DNA of 64,000 nt, taken from positions 1-64,000 of the forward strand of contig CALVGZ010000006.1 in the NCBI GenBank assembly GCA_944327225.1, in the 5' to 3' direction. Source of the DNA: Candidatus Gastranaerophilales bacterium (lineage in GTDB: Bacteria; Cyanobacteriota; Vampirovibrionia; Gastranaerophilales; Gastranaerophilaceae). Both the position numbers and the translations under genes were made by a program. A model generated the notes under the pieces. It had not been told where the DNA came from and searched no databases. It was given only the letters and a program-made list of their open reading frames with translations. This document shows positions 7,403 to 64,000 of this stretch, piece by piece. Position 1 is the first letter of the stretch; each line of letters starts with the position of its first letter.

Positions 7403-9004
7403 ATGACAAAATATATTTTTATAACAGGCGGTGTGGTTAGTTCCTTGGGAAAAGGCATTCTGGCCGCCTCTTTAGGCAGACTTTTAGCCTCAAGAGGATA
7501 TAAAGTATCAATTCAAAAATTTGACCCGTACATAAACGTTGATCCAGGCACGATGAGCCCTTTTCAACATGGAGAAGTTTTTGTGTGTGATGACGGAGCT
7601 GAAACCGATCTTGATTTAGGACATTATGAAAGGTTTATAAATAAAAATTTATCACAAATAAATAATGTGACATCAGGAAGTGTCTATCAAACGGTCATCA
7701 ATAAAGAAAGAAAAGGGGAATATCTAGGTGCAACTGTTCAGATGATACCCCATATAACAGGTGAAATAAAATCCAGAATTATTCAGGCAACCAAAAAAGA
7801 TGAACCCGATATACTTATAGCAGAAATCGGAGGGACAATCGGCGACATAGAAAGTCTTCCTTTTATTGAAGCTATAAGGCAATTCCGCTCGGAAATCGGA
7901 TACGGAAATTCTATGTCAATCCATGTTACATTATTACCTTACTTACCCACCTCTGGAGAATTAAAAACAAAACCTTCTCAACACAGCGTAAATGTTTTAA
8001 GAAGTTATGGAATTCAACCGGAAATGCTGGTATTGAGAACTCAAATTCCCATGGGTAGAAACGAAAAAGATAAACTTGCGTTGTTTTGTTCAGTGAAAAA
8101 AGACTGCGTTATAGAATGTAAAGACATGGATACCATATATGAAGTTCCTTTATACCTTGAAGAACAAGGAATAACAAAAGAAATATTAAATTTCTTAGGA
8201 ATGGAAAATAAAAATCCAGATCTGTCAGACTGGCAAGAAATGATTGAAGCCATAAAACATCCTAAAAAAGAAGCTACAATTGCACTTGTCGGAAAATATA
8301 CAGAATTAAATGACGCATACATATCAGTAGTTGAAAGTTTAAAACACGCAGGATGCAAAAATTCCGCAAAAATAAATATAAAATGGATAGCATCTGAAGA
8401 CATAACAACAGATAAAGAGGCTGCTGAAGTATTATCCGATATTGACGGTATTTTAGTTCCAGGCGGTTTTGGAATCAGAGGCATAGAAGGAAAACTAAAG
8501 GTAATAAAATATGCAAGAGAAAAGAATGTACCATATTTAGGATTGTGCCTCGGTATGCAATGTGCAATTATAGAATTTGCCAGAAACGTTGCACATCTGG
8601 AAGATGCAAACTCAACAGAATTTGACAAAAATACAAAATATAAAGTTGTAGACTTGATGGAGGAGCAAAAAAATATTTTAGGATATGGTGCAACAATGCG
8701 TTTAGGCTCGTACCCATGCAAAATAAAAGAAGGTTCAAAAGCCTATAAAGTTTATAATAATGACTTAATAAACGAAAGGCACAGACACAGATTTGAATTC
8801 AATAATGAATACAAAGAAATATTAGAACAAAAAGGACTTTTAATTTCAGGAACAAGTCCCGACGGACTATTAGCAGAAATTATTGAAATTCCAAAAAACG
8901 ACTGGTTTGTAGCATGCCAATTCCACCCTGAATTTAAATCAAGACCACAAAATCCGCATCCTCTGTTCTTGGGTTTTATAAACGCAGTTTTAAATCAAAA
9001 ATAA
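7403..9004 (+). CDS. pyrG: CTP synthase
   Basis: Makes CTP from UTP, ATP and glutamine. The 533-residue protein has the N-terminal amidoligase domain ([21 protein letters not shown]-loop at the start, [12 protein letters not shown]) and the C-terminal class I glutaminase domain from about residue 290. The glutaminase oxyanion region (VPGGFGIRG), the nucleophile elbow (YLGLCLGMQ, with the cysteine) and the catalytic His-Glu (FHPEF) are all present. The ribosome-binding site is AGAGGCG. The gene is followed directly by a terminator. Confidence 0.98.
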
Positions 9005-9027
9005 AAAGCCCTCTTTTTGAGGGCTTT
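9005..9027 (+). terminator. Terminator of gatC-pyrG
   Basis: AAAGCCCTC and GAGGGCTTT form a 9-bp stem with a TTTTT loop directly after the pyrG stop codon. The run of U residues after the stem is short. Confidence 0.8.
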
Positions 9028-9308
9028 GAAAATCTTTTTGCTTGATTCTCGTGTGAAAAGGTTAGTGTGTTAGTAGTGTGTTTTAAAACTTACCTTAATG
9101 TAGGGGGAGGTATTTATGTCTTACATATATAAAAAGTATATCCAAAATATAAAATTGCTTATTTATTTTATTTTGTAACAAAACTTAATACAAATTTATA
9201 TTTAAAATATATATAGACAAAATGAATAAAATAATTAACAAAACACTCGACTTTAATGTTCGCAATACATAAAAACAACAGAAGCAGATTATTCATAAGT
9301 TCAAAAAG
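9028..9308. other. Gene-poor region with one candidate micro-ORF
   Basis: The region between the pyrG and clpC terminators has no long gene. It holds a GT-rich tract (GTTAGTGTGTTAGTAGTGTG, 9061-9080), a very strong ribosome-binding site at 9102-9110 with a 20-codon ORF behind it, and then AT-rich sequence. I found no convincing promoter. Confidence 0.6.
9116..9178 (+). CDS. Candidate 20-residue basic hydrophobic peptide
   Basis: ATG at 9116 follows AGGGGGAGG with 5 bases between, the strongest ribosome-binding site in the window. The product is MSYIYKKYIQNIKLLIYFIL, basic in the first half and hydrophobic in the second, as in many small membrane peptides and type I toxins. A large bidirectional terminator lies 130 bases downstream. 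The absence of an evident promoter is the main reason for doubt. Confidence 0.4.
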   Translation: MSYIYKKYIQNIKLLIYFIL

Positions 9309-55547: not shown

Positions 55548-55575
55548 ATTATACACTTCAATACTACATAAACAA
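55548..55575 (-). promoter_or_regulatory. Promoter of yjbQ, leaderless type
   Basis: On the minus strand TTGTTT (55575-55570), a 16-base spacer and TATAAT (55553-55548), then AAAAGA and the ATG at 55541. No ribosome-binding site. The region lies within the end of the upstream membrane-protein gene. Confidence 0.65.
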
Positions 55576-57669
55576 GGGAGCTAAAGTTATAGCCAAAATA
55601 GCTAAAAAATTCATTAAATTTTTTAATACAGGAATAAATAATTCTCTTATAGAATCAAATACTTCATCGTTTTGAACTAAAATTGCATATTCATCAGACA
55701 AATTTGAATTTTCATACTCTTGTCTTAAATATTTTTTCGCATTTCTTACAACAACGGAAGAATTGCTCGCAAAAAACAACAAGCAGGAAGATACTAAAAT
55801 AGCACCCAAAATCAATCCACCAACTGCTTCTGATTTCAAATAAAATGCAATTAACAAAAATATAATAAAAATTACAAAAGCATAAAAAATGGCTTGAATA
55901 GTTGAATTCTTAGATGCAATGCCGACACACTGCTCATAATCTGGTCTCATTTCAAAACGTAAAATTTGAGGAAAATTTCTAAATTGCCTTTTTGCCTCTA
56001 CAACGAGCCTTTTTGAAGTTTTATTCAATCCGCTCAAAACAAAAGCAATATATAAAAATGGCAAGGAAGCACCAATAAAAAGAGAGGCTAAAACATAAGG
56101 ATTTAATATATCAATCATCTCCAATTCAGCTACAAAAGTATATGCTATAAGAAGAAGTACAGAAGACAATATTGAAGCAGCATTAAAAAAATTTTTGCCA
56201 AATGTCGCACAATTAATTGCTACCTCACCTATATAATTTGCCTGTTTAGTATCCTTCACTTCAAAATCATTATTTTCATAATATTTAAGAATTTGATTTG
56301 AAGAACTTAAAACAACAGAATAAGTATTAGCACAAAGAATTACACCCATCACAGAAATCATCGAAAGAACCGATAAGCTAATTCCATATATTCCAAACAA
56401 CGGAGATTCTATGCCACCAACAATAATAAATGACAAAACAATATTTAAGGCAATTGACAAAATAGGTGCAAAAACACTCATAAACCCTTCCCTTAAAGAC
56501 TGCAAAAAAGTCGGCAAAAAACCCGAAATTGCAATATTTGCAACATTGCGAACGGGCTTCAAATTTGAAGAAATATAATTTGCATTTATAAAACAAATCA
56601 AAATAGAACAAAATGAACCGAGTATAACCGAATAAATTAAAGAAATACCGTCAGGAATCCATAATTTAATACAATAAAAAGATAATGCACAAAGTAAAAT
56701 CACTGATTTTACAACAGAAGAATAAATAATTCTTGCTTGACTTTTTGATTTACTTATTTTCAACAGCAATATAACAAAAATTGATGCAAAAACCCCGCTT
56801 GCACATATTATTATAGGTAAAAAGCAACCCATCAAATTATACGCAAAAGCACCAATTGTCATAGAAGCAATCAAAACAGAACAAAAAATCAATAACATAT
56901 CTGACACAACGGAATTAACACCAAAAATCATTCTTGAAACCCCTTCTAACAATATAAGAGGTGAACGTTTATCGGCTAAATCTATATCTGCAATATAGTT
57001 TGAAACAATTCCCGAAGCACAAGAAGAAGATCTTTTAATAATTGCCGAAGAAACAGTACTAAACATACAAGGAACACAAGCACCCAATAAAAAACCGTTT
57101 ATAATTTGATAATCTTTAAACAAATGAAACAATATAACAATAACACTTAAACAAATTCCAACACTCATCATAGTGGAAACAACGCCCGAATTGAATGCCA
57201 ATCTTGAAGCACAATTACTTGATTCATCTATTGCTTTCACAACACGAACTTCAGTTCTTGAACATATAAATAATGAAACATAATGTGACACAAAAAAAGT
57301 CAAAGCACCAGAAATAAAAGATATTAGATAAGGAATGCTCATTTTTTTAACAATAAAATAAGACGTAAAAATCAACAAAATTAAAAAAATTTTAAACTGC
57401 TGTTTTAAAAAAATTAAAGCCCCTCGATGAAAATAATCGACTATTTTTTGAACAGAAGAATCTTTATAACAATATAAAATATTTTCCAAAATTTTAACCG
57501 AAGCCAATAAAATACTCACTGCACCTGCAAAAAGACCAACCCATTTAGACTTTGTTGAAGTAATATCAACAAAGTAAACAAGATAACCTTGATAAAGAGC
57601 AATTATCAAAAAAAGCCAAACAAAAAAATTCCAAAATATTAATCTCTTTTTAATTCTATTTCTATCCAT
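55564..57669 (-). CDS. Membrane pyrophosphatase homologue lacking catalytic residues
   Basis: A 701-residue, intact, highly hydrophobic protein that follows the ion-pumping membrane pyrophosphatase family along its whole length: HRGALIFLKQQFKIF, SGALTFFVSHYVSLF, RLVVEAKRQFRNFPQIL, RPDYEQCVGIASKNS and RNAKKYLRQEY all have clear counterparts. But the catalytic loop DDPRNP...DNVGDNVGD is replaced by LADKRSP...EGVSRMIFGVNSVVSD (residues about 231-256), and the C-terminal GDTVGDPxKDTSGPS by NDEVFDSIRELFIP. It cannot be an ordinary pyrophosphatase. It may be a regulatory or structural paralogue. AAGAG precedes the ATG. Confidence 0.85.
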   Translation of the reverse strand: MDRNRIKKRLIFWNFFVWLFLIIALYQGYLVYFVDITSTKSKWVGLFAGAVSILLASVKILENILYCYKDSSVQKIVDYFHRGALIFLKQQFKIFLILLIFTSYFIVKKMSIPYLISFISGALTFFVSHYVSLFICSRTEVRVVKAIDESSNCASRLAFNSGVVSTMMSVGICLSVIVILFHLFKDYQIINGFLLGACVPCMFSTVSSAIIKRSSSCASGIVSNYIADIDLADKRSPLILLEGVSRMIFGVNSVVSDMLLIFCSVLIASMTIGAFAYNLMGCFLPIIICASGVFASIFVILLLKISKSKSQARIIYSSVVKSVILLCALSFYCIKLWIPDGISLIYSVILGSFCSILICFINANYISSNLKPVRNVANIAISGFLPTFLQSLREGFMSVFAPILSIALNIVLSFIIVGGIESPLFGIYGISLSVLSMISVMGVILCANTYSVVLSSSNQILKYYENNDFEVKDTKQANYIGEVAINCATFGKNFFNAASILSSVLLLIAYTFVAELEMIDILNPYVLASLFIGASLPFLYIAFVLSGLNKTSKRLVVEAKRQFRNFPQILRFEMRPDYEQCVGIASKNSTIQAIFYAFVIFIIFLLIAFYLKSEAVGGLILGAILVSSCLLFFASNSSVVVRNAKKYLRQEYENSNLSDEYAILVQNDEVFDSIRELFIPVLKNLMNFLAILAITLAPLFM

Positions 57670-59362: not shown

Positions 59363-60106
59363 TTAATTTATAAAATTAACAATATCATTTATGCTTTCAG
59401 GGTTAACTTTTAAAAGCTGATTTCCTGGCCCGCCCAAAGGATATGTTTTAATTATCGGTTTTGTTTTTGTATAGAAATTAAACAAAATCTTATCCGACTT
59501 TGAAAGTAAAACCAAAAACTTAGTATCTGAATAATTTGCAACTTTATAAGGAATATATAGACCCTTAAAGTTTAACATTGGAGAAATCATAACGAACTTT
59601 ACAGGCTCTTTTTTCATCAATTTTCCTGCCAAAATCCCTGTACTTGCACCAATGTCAGCACCAACTATAATTACATCATCACAATTAATATAAGGATAAT
59701 TAGCTTTTATATAACTCACTGATTGAATCACATCATCGGGAAGTTTTCTCCAATCATTTTGCGTGAATTTATATCTGGACTTCAATTTTAAACTTTCATT
59801 ATAAACCGACCGTCCATGTCCTCTTAAATCCATTGCCAATACATTAAAATCTTTTGCTCTCAATGCCAAAGCTAAATCTTTCCAAGCATAAGAATTCAAA
59901 CCGAAAGAATGCAATAAAATTACAAGAGGCTTATCTGACTTATTTTGTGCAAAATAAATATCACCTGACAAAATAAACTTATCTTTTGTAACAAATTCAA
60001 TCTTGTGTTTAATTGAAGGTTCTTTTTTCTTTTTCTTAGCAGCAAAAGCAGCACTAAAAGAAAAAAACAAAACAAAAACAATTAAAAAAGAAATTATTTT
60101 TTTCAT
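59363..60106 (-). CDS. Exported alpha/beta hydrolase-fold protein without nucleophile
   Basis: A signal peptide (IISFLIVFVLFFSFSAAFAA) is followed by a basic lysine run and an alpha/beta hydrolase fold: LVILLHSFGLNSYAWKDLAL, LAMDLRGHGRSVYN. The nucleophile elbow reads IIVGADIGASTGI, with Asp where Ser is usual. The C-terminal histidine position reads GGPGNQLL, with no histidine. The acid residue (LSKSDKILF) is kept. Ordinary esterase chemistry is unlikely unless Asp serves as nucleophile as in dehalogenases. TAAAAT lies 7 bases before the ATG. Confidence 0.8.
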   Translation of the reverse strand: MKKIISFLIVFVLFFSFSAAFAAKKKKKEPSIKHKIEFVTKDKFILSGDIYFAQNKSDKPLVILLHSFGLNSYAWKDLALALRAKDFNVLAMDLRGHGRSVYNESLKLKSRYKFTQNDWRKLPDDVIQSVSYIKANYPYINCDDVIIVGADIGASTGILAGKLMKKEPVKFVMISPMLNFKGLYIPYKVANYSDTKFLVLLSKSDKILFNFYTKTKPIIKTYPLGGPGNQLLKVNPESINDIVNFIN

Positions 60107-60119: not shown

Positions 60120-60230
60120 ACAAATAAGGCACATTTTTTATATTTTTACAAAAAATTACAACTTTTAGAGGAAATTAAAAAAAGTAACTAAAGTAAAAAT
60201 TTATTTTTGACGAAAATATGAACATATCAA

Positions 60231-60308
60231 ATTTTGATATAGAGCGAAGGCTCTTTATCAAAACCTCCTCCCCAAGTCTAGTAGCCGCCTTATGACGGCT
60301 TTTTTTTG
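60231..60308 (+). ncRNA. Candidate small RNA with C-rich single-stranded motif
   Basis: Hairpin 1: TTTTGATA (60232-60239) with TATCAAAA (60256-60263), a T-T mismatch, then AGAGC/GCTCT closing a GAAG loop. A single-stranded CCTCCTCCCC follows at 60264-60273. Hairpin 2 is a terminator (AGCCG 60283-60287 with CGGCT 60296-60300) and a run of eight T. C-rich loops of this type are used by small RNAs to bind ribosome-binding sites. TTGACG at 60207 could be a -35 box, but the -10 box is not clear. Confidence 0.6.
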
Positions 60309-60311
60309 TTT

Positions 60312-61340
60312 TTAAAAGTAACCTAATAATTCATCTATAATTTTTTTAGCATCTGCTACGATTTTATAGTCTGCATATTTAAATATTTCCGCTTTTTCAT
60401 CAGAATTTATAGCTATAATCTTTTTAGAATTTTTCATTCCGACAACATGCTGAACAGCTCCCGAAATTCCAAAAGTTATATATAAATCCGGACTAACAGT
60501 TGAACCGGTTTGCCCGATTTGATATTCCTTAGAAACCAAATTCAAATCTACAACTTTTCTTGATGCACCGAATTTAGCATTGATTTTATCCGCTAATTTT
60601 TTTAATTTATCAAAATATTCAGGATTTTTACCCATATACAAGCCATACCCAGCAGCTAATATAATTTTTGAATTATCAAAATCAACATCGTTCTTTTCTT
60701 TTTCAAAAAAAGAACGTAACAATTTTACCCTAGTTTCATTTATCGGATATTTAAGATTATATTCAAAAAATCTATTCGATATATCATCTGACCCCAAAGT
60801 AAAATCAGCAACAAAGGTCTTTGGACGTACAGTTGCACACTGTGGATTCTTTTTAGATAAAATAGTTGCCATTAATTCAGAACCAAAAGTCGGACGAGTA
60901 GCAGCAAGCATAATGTTTTCATTTTTCTTAATTAGCTCCAATCCAGTGCAATCAGCAACAAGACCGACATCAAGCATAGTAGTGATTCTTGGAGCGAGAA
61001 TTCTTCCATAAGGTGTTGCAGGAAATAAAATTATTTCACAAGGATTTGAAGAAAAATATTCCATAAACGAAAGTGAAAATACATTCTGAGAAAAAGTGTC
61101 CAAAGACTCATCCTTAATATGAACAAAGTAATCCAAACCCGCAAGAAAAGCTTTTCTTACAGAATCCATATCTATATTTTTACATAAAACAATTCCCACA
61201 ACCTCAAAATCATTATTTTCACAATCAATTTCTTTTGCTGAAATTTTTAGTTGTCTGGCCTTAGTTATCAGCTCGTAAGAAACATCACTTAGAGTATTAT
61301 TATTTAAATCTGATTCTAAGTATACCGCAATTTTACCCAT
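60312..61340 (-). CDS. etfA: Electron transfer flavoprotein alpha subunit
   Basis: The 342 residues end with the FAD-binding domain: GASRKVVDLNLVS, YQIGQTGSTVSPDLYITFGI, SGAVQHVVGMKNSKKIIAIN and ADYKIVADAKKIIDELL. The N-terminal half resembles EtfB-like folds, as usual. It starts on the last base of etfB's stop codon region, so both are cotranslated. No acyl-CoA dehydrogenase gene is nearby, so its electron donor is not visible. Confidence 0.93.
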   Translation of the reverse strand: MGKIAVYLESDLNNNTLSDVSYELITKARQLKISAKEIDCENNDFEVVGIVLCKNIDMDSVRKAFLAGLDYFVHIKDESLDTFSQNVFSLSFMEYFSSNPCEIILFPATPYGRILAPRITTMLDVGLVADCTGLELIKKNENIMLAATRPTFGSELMATILSKKNPQCATVRPKTFVADFTLGSDDISNRFFEYNLKYPINETRVKLLRSFFEKEKNDVDFDNSKIILAAGYGLYMGKNPEYFDKLKKLADKINAKFGASRKVVDLNLVSKEYQIGQTGSTVSPDLYITFGISGAVQHVVGMKNSKKIIAINSDEKAEIFKYADYKIVADAKKIIDELLGYF

Positions 61341-62119: not shown

Positions 62120-63166
62120 TCAACTGCCTTTTACAACTTTATTCAATCCTTTTGGGTTATCCACGTTCTTTTTAAGTCTCAGTGCAATTTTTAAAGCCAA
62201 TAATTGTACTAAAACTATCATATTTACGATTGTTGCAATTTTTGATTGTCCCTTATTAAATTTTACTAAAATATCACAATCATAATCCTCATAAACATCC
62301 GAAACAACAACTGATTTAGTTTTATATGTTTTTATTATTTTATTTAACAATGCTAATTCATTTTCAGAAGAATCGCTTGTAATAAAAGTTAAAAACGCAT
62401 TTTCTTTATTTAATACAGCAAAGTGACCATGGATAAATTCTCCTAAAGGATATGCACAAGTAGTAATATAACTTGTTTCCTTAATTTTAAGTGCCGCTTC
62501 TAAACTTAATGCATAATTATATCCAAGACCTAAAATAGAAACGGATTTTTTCTTTGATAAAAATTTTGCAGCTAAATCAATATTGTCAATATCTTTTATA
62601 AAAGTTTCCAAATTGCTCCTCATTGCGTAAATATTTTTTGTTTCTTCGGAAATTTCAATATGCTTATTTTGAGCAATTTTAAGTGCAATCAACCATAGCA
62701 TTACTACCGTTGCACTATATGTTTTTGTGGCAGCTATCGCTTTTTCTCTGCCTGCGTTTATATCAAACCTGAAATCAGCATTTTTATACATTGTTGATTC
62801 CAAATTATTTGTGATACACAAAACTTTTGCACCTGATTCTTTTATTTTATTCATGGCAAACACTGTATCAATACTTTCGCCTGATTGACTTATTAAAACA
62901 TAAAGCGTATCTTTATCAAAATTTAAAAAAGAACTACTTGCAACTTCACTTGCATAATTGACAGAAGTCTCAACACTAGCTATCTGTTCAAAAAAACATT
63001 TTCCAAAAACTCCGGCATTATAAGATGAACCGGCAGCAATAATAGAAATTCTCTTTATTGCAATTGGAATATCCATCAAAACACAATAATTTACAACATA
63101 TTTCTTTATTAAATCCTCAATTATCTGACCTTGAGAATAAATTTCCGCTTCCATCACATAACTCAT
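62120..63166 (-). CDS. SIS-domain protein like the GlmS isomerase half
   Basis: 348 residues with two SIS domains and no glutaminase domain. The first has IAAGSSYNAGVFGKCFF and VLISQSGESIDTV, the second KIKETSYITTCAYPLGEF and IHGHFAVL. This is the layout of ammonia-dependent glucosamine-6-phosphate isomerases/deaminases (NagB-II, AgaS, FrlB type). I choose the ATG at 63166, which gives MSYVMEAEIYSQGQI and has TATAAT 6 bases upstream; an ATG at 63271 would overlap the divergent hemW by 85 bases. It heads an operon with etfB and etfA. Confidence 0.85.
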   Translation of the reverse strand: MSYVMEAEIYSQGQIIEDLIKKYVVNYCVLMDIPIAIKRISIIAAGSSYNAGVFGKCFFEQIASVETSVNYASEVASSSFLNFDKDTLYVLISQSGESIDTVFAMNKIKESGAKVLCITNNLESTMYKNADFRFDINAGREKAIAATKTYSATVVMLWLIALKIAQNKHIEISEETKNIYAMRSNLETFIKDIDNIDLAAKFLSKKKSVSILGLGYNYALSLEAALKIKETSYITTCAYPLGEFIHGHFAVLNKENAFLTFITSDSSENELALLNKIIKTYKTKSVVVSDVYEDYDCDILVKFNKGQSKIATIVNMIVLVQLLALKIALRLKKNVDNPKGLNKVVKGS

Positions 63167-63172
63167 ATTCAT

Positions 63173-63180
63173 ATTATAAT
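63173..63180. promoter_or_regulatory. Overlapping divergent -10 boxes of the SIS gene and hemW
   Basis: The 8-base sequence ATTATAAT reads TATAAT on both strands (63178-63173 minus, 63175-63180 plus). Exactly 6 bases follow on each side before an ATG (63166 minus, 63187 plus). Neither gene has a ribosome-binding site. Confidence 0.75.
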
Positions 63181-63186
63181 GTAAAA

Positions 63187-64000
63187 ATGATAAATTGTGT
63201 CTATATTCATATACCTTTTTGTGAAAAAAAATGTCATTACTGCTCATTTTGTTCTTTTTCGATACTTTCATACAAAGAAAAATATCTTAACGCTTTAATT
63301 GAAGAAATTAAATTTCATTACAGAAACGAAACATTAGATACTTTATATATTGGCGGCGGCACTCCGTCATTGCTTAACGAAAATGAAATTGAAAAAATAT
63401 TAAATTGCTTTAACATTAACAAAAAAACTGAAATAACAATTGAGGCAAATCCAAACAGTATAAACTTTAAAAAATTAAAAAACTGTAAAAATCTCGGAAT
63501 TAACAGAATTAGCATGGGGGTTCAATCCTTTGACGATAAAATTTTGAAAAAAATAGGCAGATTACATAATAAAAAGGATATTTATAATGTTATAAAATGG
63601 ATAAACAAAGCTGATATTGAAAATTTCAACATAGACTTAATGTATGGCCTGCCTGATCAAACCATTGAAAACTGGCAAGAAACAATAGATGAAGCTATAA
63701 AATTAAACCCTAAACACATTTCGACCTATGGATTAAAAATTGAAAAAGGAACATATTTCGAAAAAAATAAACCTAAAAATTTGCCCGATGAAACAACTCA
63801 AGCTGAAATGTATTTAGTTCTAACCGAAAAATTAAAAAATTACAATCATTACGAATTTTCAAACTTTGCAAAATCAGAAGAATATTTTTCAAAACATAAT
63901 CTCGCATATTGGACAAGAAAGAACTACTACGGTTTTGGTTTAAGTGCTTCCGGATTTGTGAATAACAAAAGATATACAAACACCTTTAATATAAAAGAAT
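63187..64000 (+). CDS. hemW: HemW-type radical SAM protein, 3' end outside the window
   Basis: The open frame runs off the right edge after 271 codons. It begins NCVYIHIPFCEKKCHYCSFC, with the CxxxCxxC iron-sulfur site and the extra cysteine of the coproporphyrinogen dehydrogenase-like family, followed by LDTLYIGGGTPSLL, ISMGVQSFDDKILKKIGR and IDLMYGLPDQT. KHNLAYWTRKNYYGFGLSAS contains the HNxxYW heme-binding motif, which points to the heme chaperone HemW rather than the HemN enzyme. The start is fixed by the -10 box 6 bases upstream. Confidence 0.92.
   Translation, partial: MINCVYIHIPFCEKKCHYCSFCSFSILSYKEKYLNALIEEIKFHYRNETLDTLYIGGGTPSLLNENEIEKILNCFNINKKTEITIEANPNSINFKKLKNCKNLGINRISMGVQSFDDKILKKIGRLHNKKDIYNVIKWINKADIENFNIDLMYGLPDQTIENWQETIDEAIKLNPKHISTYGLKIEKGTYFEKNKPKNLPDETTQAEMYLVLTEKLKNYNHYEFSNFAKSEEYFSKHNLAYWTRKNYYGFGLSASGFVNNKRYTNTFNIKE

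Follow-up and report, generated by a model that had tools for sequence, protein, structure and literature searches.

The Gastranaerophilales are a non-photosynthetic sister group of the cyanobacteria, and no description of their small RNAs was found in Rfam or in the literature that we searched. Among the RNAs described in other bacteria, Yfr1 (RF01116) pairs with mRNAs where their translation starts and thereby represses them, and consists, over 54-69 nt, of two stem-loops, the 3' one a terminator, that flank an unpaired linker with the ultraconserved C-rich motif ACUCCUCACAC (PMC2190773, PMC6974561). The α-r14 RNAs of rhizobia, including NfeR1, which silences an mRNA by pairing at its start region, carry the anti-Shine-Dalgarno segment CCUCCUCCC in unpaired regions of each of three hairpins, and their stems diverge while this motif stays fixed (PMC10746234). 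Small RNAs that depend on σ28 (FliA) and act on flagellar genes are also known, for example the UTR-derived MotR, FliX, FlgO and UhpU of E. coli (PMC10578931) and CJnc170/FlmR of C. jejuni (PMC11187230).

Here we analyze a locus of a Candidatus Gastranaerophilales genome within a stretch of 64,000 nucleotides (the window), at which an initial annotation had proposed a small RNA whose unpaired, C-rich segment could pair with ribosome-binding sites. The features discussed below are:

60155..60176, + strand: palindromic operator-like element ATTACAACTTTTAGAGGAAATT, family consensus TCTACWYCAWWTRGAKGATATT (evidence: median bit score against shuffles)
60189..60193, + strand: -35-like TAAAG of a σ28-type promoter, conserved upstream in genus and family
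60209..60216, + strand: -10-like GACGAAAA, family form GCCGATAA, of the σ28-type promoter
60223..60308, + strand: small RNA of ~86 nt, start placed from the promoter and end from the terminator; 100.5 bits with covariance model R1
60232..60263, + strand: 5' hairpin 1 with loop GAAG, sequence variable and pairing kept (folding and covariation)
60264..60282, + strand: linker CCUCCUCCCCAAGUCUAGU, unpaired and near-invariant (unpaired probability, model-selected sequences)
60264-60273, + strand: anti-Shine-Dalgarno-like segment CCUCCUCCCC within the linker
60283..60308, + strand: intrinsic terminator, AGCCG...CGGCT stem plus U tract, with a variable upper stem and a nearly invariant 5' arm GCCG
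9001..9140, - strand: a second, unrelated and multi-copy small RNA gene, not part of the first RNA (model R2)

Structure, conservation and autonomy of the RNA

The RNA is encoded on the + strand between a minus-strand ORF at 59363-60106, which has an α/β-hydrolase-like product, and minus-strand etfA at 60312-61340, so that it diverges from the former and converges on the 3' end of the latter, its end being 4 bases away from the stop codon of this oppositely oriented gene. The candidate, with its hairpin, C-rich linker and terminator, was thus found where it had been annotated, but the flanking units, which had been called convergent, both lie on the minus strand, and the small RNA alone converges on etfA. 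The end of the proposed interval (60207-60308) stands; the start is more probably near 60223, about 14 bases after the start of the -10 element, and 60207-60222 is promoter. Two other genes in this part of the window also attracted attention: a minus-strand gene at 62120-63271, lying upstream of the co-oriented etfB and etfA, encodes a 383-aa protein that matches only the sugar-isomerase half of GlmS, with no glutamine amidotransferase domain matched, and one at 55564-57669 (minus strand) encodes a divergent membrane pyrophosphatase relative (317 bits vs a family cut-off of 546).

Hairpin 1 contains 13 base pairs and one U-U mismatch (UUUUGAUA-U-AGAGC / GCUCU-U-UAUCAAAA, loop GAAG), and is followed on the + strand by CCTCCTCCCC at 60264-60273, which occurs once in the 1.73-Mb genome, then by AAGTCTAGT, which completes the 19-nt linker, the terminator stem at 60283-60300 and U8. 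The 86-nt strand folds with -22.9 kcal/mol (z = -3.9), a value equaled by none of 200 shuffles, and its terminator is the sole terminator-like site in the interval from 59.3 to 60.5 kb, where 0.3 are expected. Across 166 distinct family sequences, the mean unpaired probability in the C-rich segment is ~0.9 at most positions and 0.6 at two. In the same sequences hairpin 1 has a mean energy of -10.9 kcal/mol with its own arms vs -5.0 when the 3' arm is swapped from another sequence.

Each of the 28 genus genomes gave a match to a 123-base query, and in the alignment of these matches CAAAACCTCCTCCCCAAGTCTAGTAGCCGCC..GACGGCTTTTTTTT is almost invariant while the sequence of hairpin 1 differs and its pairing stays. 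In 26 distinct genus rows, six of ten hairpin 1 pairs have changed on both sides, and the covariation score of 0.209 compares with 0.113 ± 0.013 for shuffled alignments (0 of 500 reach it) and 0.03-0.09 in slid registers. The covariance model R1, built from the genus sequences, found the RNA, in a first sample, in 110 of 117 genomes and 40 of 41 genera of the family, and, in a second, in 128 of 130 family genomes plus the one genome of another family in the order; the genomes compared are mostly metagenome assemblies. A loss of hairpin 1 and the C-rich segment with the terminator alone kept would have spoken against the annotation; the searches of related genomes revealed the opposite, with both conserved and hairpin 1 covarying. 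The family linker CCUCCUCCCCAAGUCURGUAGCCG (24 nt) is nearly invariant across dozens of genera, and of 31 sequences selected by covariance model and not by motif, 29-31 agree at every base of TCCCCAAGTCT, the next base being A or G. The terminators have 66 different upper stems and loops among the matches read. As judged from these alignments, selection acts on the sequence of the linker and on the existence of the helices.

Outside the order the RNA was found neither in five class-mates nor in ~155 other members of the phylum, a sample that included Yfr1-bearing cyanobacteria; one other phylum genome gave a weak covariance-model match (E = 0.07) with the motif absent. The pattern CCTCCCCAAGTCTRGTAGCCG occurs in at least 115 stretches of named genomes, nearly all of them titled Candidatus Gastranaerophilales, Melainabacteria or unnamed, and mostly from gut metagenome assemblies. 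Comparison with Rfam gave nothing above threshold, either in the window or in eight relatives, and the weak matches in the window (mmgR, RyhB and others) were discarded because they fall far below the cut-off. The RNA is present at least twice in some genomes, one of which has copies arranged in tandem (L168, 5831-5921 and 5989-6070, minus strand), and the loci L117 and L143, as well as L121 and L168, each share an assembly. One genus also contains a related element, TCATCCTGTTTAGACC[AG]CCTAACCAAGTCTAGCAGCCG (L088, 384-466; L104, 401-468), that has the 3' half of the linker and the start of the terminator in common with the small RNA, lacks the C-rich piece and is possibly a paralogous RNA.

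Folding is common in AT-rich intergenic DNA, so a chance hairpin beside a terminator, with no independent RNA, had to be considered. Presence in 28 of 28 genus genomes, together with covariation above every shuffle and slid register, rules out this origin, conservation in the family speaks against it as well, and its probability is negligible; the comparative data indicate that the candidate is a real small-RNA gene. The end of the RNA 4 bases from the etfA stop codon also brings to mind a cis element of etfA or of the 59363-60106 ORF, acting as a leader, a terminator or an antisense RNA to the etfA 3' end. Here the neighbors are decisive: etfA/etfB and the hydrolase gene flank the RNA in this genus, other genes take their place in most other genera with no change in the RNA, and the commonest neighbor cluster on any side accounts for ~20% of loci. 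These changes between genera refute a cis element of etfA; the presence of the U tract on the + strand only and the promoter-like signals that the RNA has of its own also speak against it, and we regard a cis function as very improbable; the same changes make the small RNA look autonomous and trans-acting.

A predicted σ28-type promoter and an operator-like palindrome

Promoters of the σ28 (FliA/SigD) type have the form TAAA-N15-GCCGATAA. By sequence, the small RNA has a promoter of this type, as do the known σ28-dependent flagellar RNAs; its family form is TAAAG-N14/15-GNCGAWAA, and in the genus of this genome the -10 element is a weak match to the consensus. The strict pattern TAAAG-N14/15-[GA]NCG[AT][TAC] is present upstream in 107 of 172 loci vs 0.5% of shuffled upstream regions, and most of the remaining loci have a degenerate form of the promoter. 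A strict TAAA-N15/17-GCCGAT scan of this genome gave 23 matches, all of them inside ORFs, so the strict σ28 consensus is uninformative in this genus. The genome encodes a FliA/WhiG σ factor (243 bits vs a cut-off of 190), and we infer from the promoter sequences that a FliA-type σ factor transcribes the small RNA.

The operator-like palindrome precedes nearly all family members, with a median of 21.8 bits vs -7.1 in shuffles. Outside the small-RNA loci it is found before three flagellin genes of other genera (L285, L290, L291), one of which combines it with a TAAA-N15-GCCGATTA promoter; σ28-type promoters were present at few of the flagellin loci looked at. The palindrome looks, from its sequence and placement, like the site of an undescribed regulator. 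It was also seen upstream of a gene for a TPR protein and of a short ORF (L199, L201), with σ28-like boxes behind it.

Flagellin is encoded in 18 of 40 family genomes and is absent from 22, over many genera and including a member of this genus (G022). Since promoter, operator and RNA are all kept in genomes without flagellin, flagella are not the sole context of the small-RNA promoter. This persistence where flagellin has been lost distinguishes the RNA from the σ28-dependent RNAs of E. coli and C. jejuni, and raises the question of why an RNA with a flagellar-type promoter survives in such lineages. In addition, the E. coli RNAs derive from UTRs, whereas the RNA described here is a stand-alone intergenic gene of unrelated sequence.

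Predicted pairing with mRNA start regions

Target prediction covered roughly half of one genome and smaller fractions of a second and a third. In this genome, the linker AACCUCCUCCCCAAGUCUAGUA was scanned against the start regions of 754 ORFs from 0.86 Mb, with start codons assigned by a simple rule. About 51% of the 754 sampled ORFs have GGAG, GAGG or AGGA before the start, so Shine-Dalgarno-bearing genes are common in this genome. Over all start regions, 37 reached -14 kcal/mol vs 25 ± 7 with shuffled linkers, which is not clearly better, and across 27 genomes near-perfect 12-base complements of the C-rich part were no more frequent elsewhere than in controls.

Among the best start regions of this genome, 6 of 24 belong to flagellar ORFs, of which the set contains 24 (hypergeometric 5e-5; 0 of 150 shuffled linkers), an enrichment that was noticed post hoc and for which flagellar ORFs were partly assigned by position. 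The six are a transglycosylase ORF before flgF/G, flgJ, fliQ, fliA, flhA and, at the fliG position, an ORF that matched nothing in NCBIfam. Because of the post hoc origin, the identical rule was fixed beforehand for a second genus, where, in 0.8 Mb of a flagellated genome, 4 of the 23 best start regions were flagellar, among 20 orthologs (p = 0.003); 1% of shuffled linkers reach four, and the gap between flagellar and other genes exceeds that of all 200. There, 14 of the 15 bases of UACUAGAAUUGGGGA at motA are complementary to the linker, as are all nine bases of ACUUGGGGA at the transglycosylase ORF. The 0.4 Mb scanned in a third genome contained only eight of the orthologs, and 1 of the 11 best start regions was flagellar (fliQ; p = 0.23). 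Most of the flagellar sites predicted in one genus differ from those in another; flgJ, for example, is strong in one and absent in the other. These predictions are suggestive only, and make flagellar mRNAs among the targets a good hypothesis, not a result.

The accessible complementary segment that had been proposed was found, but the target named for it, GGGGAGG at 9104-9110, is not a ribosome-binding site, since the length of the ORF behind it is unconserved and the sequence lies opposite the 5' part of the second small RNA. In this genome GGGGAGG-N3-13-ATG occurs three times, with the same sequence each time (GGGGAGGTATTTATG), and the copies examined across the genus have ~100 bases in common on the other side, plus a fixed ATGTCTTACATATATATAAAG, while their ORFs vary from 9 to 35 codons. 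This variation also led us to reject the 20-codon ORF MSYIYKKYIQNIKLLIYFIL as a small toxin-like or leader peptide; the DNA that it shares with the opposite-strand promoter stays fixed as its length varies.

The second RNA reads on the opposite strand ATATACTTTATATATATGTAAGACATAAATA(A)CCTCC(TCC)CCC..CACACTAACC..CACGAGAATCAAGC, followed by a compensating terminator and then T. Model R2 finds three copies in this genome, one of which is at window 9140-9001, and matches in 44 of 60 family genomes; Rfam gave no match to it. It has a conserved promoter region (TGTAACAAA..GCAATTTTTAT..ATATACTTTATATATATGTAAG), a C/A-rich body (CACACTAACCTTTTCACACGAGAATC) and a terminator, with CCUCCCC near the 5' end in this genus; the copies read outside the genus lack the C-rich piece. 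Additional loci are L365, L366 and L385, with family matches at L387-L414, and in one genome (L367, L368) the second RNA contains AACCUCCUCCCC, 12 bases of the first RNA's linker.

For the first RNA, the best explanation, and in our judgment a likely one, is an autonomous trans-acting regulatory small RNA of ~86 nt that acts by pairing of its linker with mRNA start regions. It has the features of this functional class, namely an accessible C-rich segment complementary to Shine-Dalgarno sequences, promoter- and terminator-like signals and a location unlinked to its predicted targets, and related RNAs with C-rich seeds act by pairing at start regions (PMC6974561, PMC10746234). In the proposed mechanism, a FliA-type σ factor would transcribe the RNA, a regulator at the upstream operator would tune this transcription, and the 5' hairpin and terminator would protect the RNA and hold the linker open. 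The linker would pair with mRNA start regions, on the Shine-Dalgarno side via CCUCCUCC and on the upstream side via CCCCAAGUCUAGUA, and would mostly block initiation. The C-rich stretch probably pairs with ribosome-binding sites of other messages, perhaps including flagellar ones; suggested targets are the transglycosylase ORF upstream of flgF/G, flhA, fliQ and fliA, with motA/flgI in another genus. If the flagellar targets are true, the RNA would feed back on the flagellar cascade. Its retention in genomes that lack flagellin means that it must have other targets too, and with flagellin in only 18 of the 40 family genomes flagella are not the sole reason for its conservation.

Alternatively, the linker could capture or tune a protein, be it an RNA chaperone, a ribosomal factor or a regulator of translation, with mRNA pairing incidental. 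Such a role would account for the invariance of the whole 24-nt region over dozens of genera, which goes beyond the needs of Shine-Dalgarno pairing, and would fit both the start-region complementarity that overall is not clearly above that of shuffled linkers and the absence of near-perfect complements. We consider it unlikely, though worth keeping in view, in light of the two separate parts of the linker that, in the top-ranked predicted targets, match the start region on either side, the reproduction of the flagellar enrichment in a second genus, and the action by base pairing of the analogous invariant motifs of Yfr1 and α-r14 RNAs (PMC6974561, PMC10746234).

Relationship to Yfr1 and α-r14 RNAs

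Like Yfr1, the RNA has two stem-loops, the 3' one a terminator, around an unpaired linker, whose 19 nt lie within the 16-20 nt of the Yfr1 layout. Yfr1 is further marked by high, constitutive abundance. Unlike Yfr1, it is ~86 nt long, has a σ28-type promoter and an operator, and occurs in a different lineage among different neighbors; in place of the invariant ACUCCUCACAC its linker has CCUCCUCCCCA, within CCUCCUCCCCAAGUCURG. It shares with α-r14 RNAs an identical CCUCCUCCC segment and a fixed motif among diverging stems, but has this segment once, in the linker between two hairpins, instead of in each of three hairpins, and adds an invariant AAGUCURGUAG. With neither the Yfr1 motif and model match nor the three-hairpin layout of α-r14, the RNA was assigned to neither family.

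One possibility is that this RNA and Yfr1 descend from the same ancestral RNA, in which the linker changed from ACUCCUCACAC to CCUCCUCCCCAAG after the split from photosynthetic cyanobacteria; such a common descent would not conflict with the mode of action favored above. The same layout and similar size in a sister lineage, the 7 of 11 motif bases in common (UCCUC core) and the failure to find Yfr1-motif RNAs in this family, where ACTCCTCACAC plus a T tract is absent apart from chance-like matches, are what an orthologue would predict. Orthology nevertheless seems doubtful to us, as the Yfr1 covariance model had no match in the window even at E <= 10 and none over the cut-off in 40 family genomes, leaving orthology by covariance model unsupported, the invariant undecamer is absent, promoter type and neighborhood differ, and both signals are absent from five class-mates.

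The combination of a stand-alone gene, a Yfr1-like layout, a σ28-type promoter and order-level invariance is absent from Rfam and new to us. Near-universal presence in the best-sampled family, together with an invariant seed, makes this RNA a first entry to post-transcriptional control in the Gastranaerophilales, and a direct comparison with Yfr1 can now ask whether the C-rich linker RNA is ancestral or convergent. We offer as a speculation, and not as a probable history, that a Yfr1-like anti-ribosome-binding-site RNA predates the split between photosynthetic and non-photosynthetic lineages, and that in the gut lineage it became a σ28-driven post-transcriptional brake on flagellar assembly and on envelope genes and later a general regulator. 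If this were true, a brake RNA would have been kept after flagella were lost in many genera, having become a general regulator.
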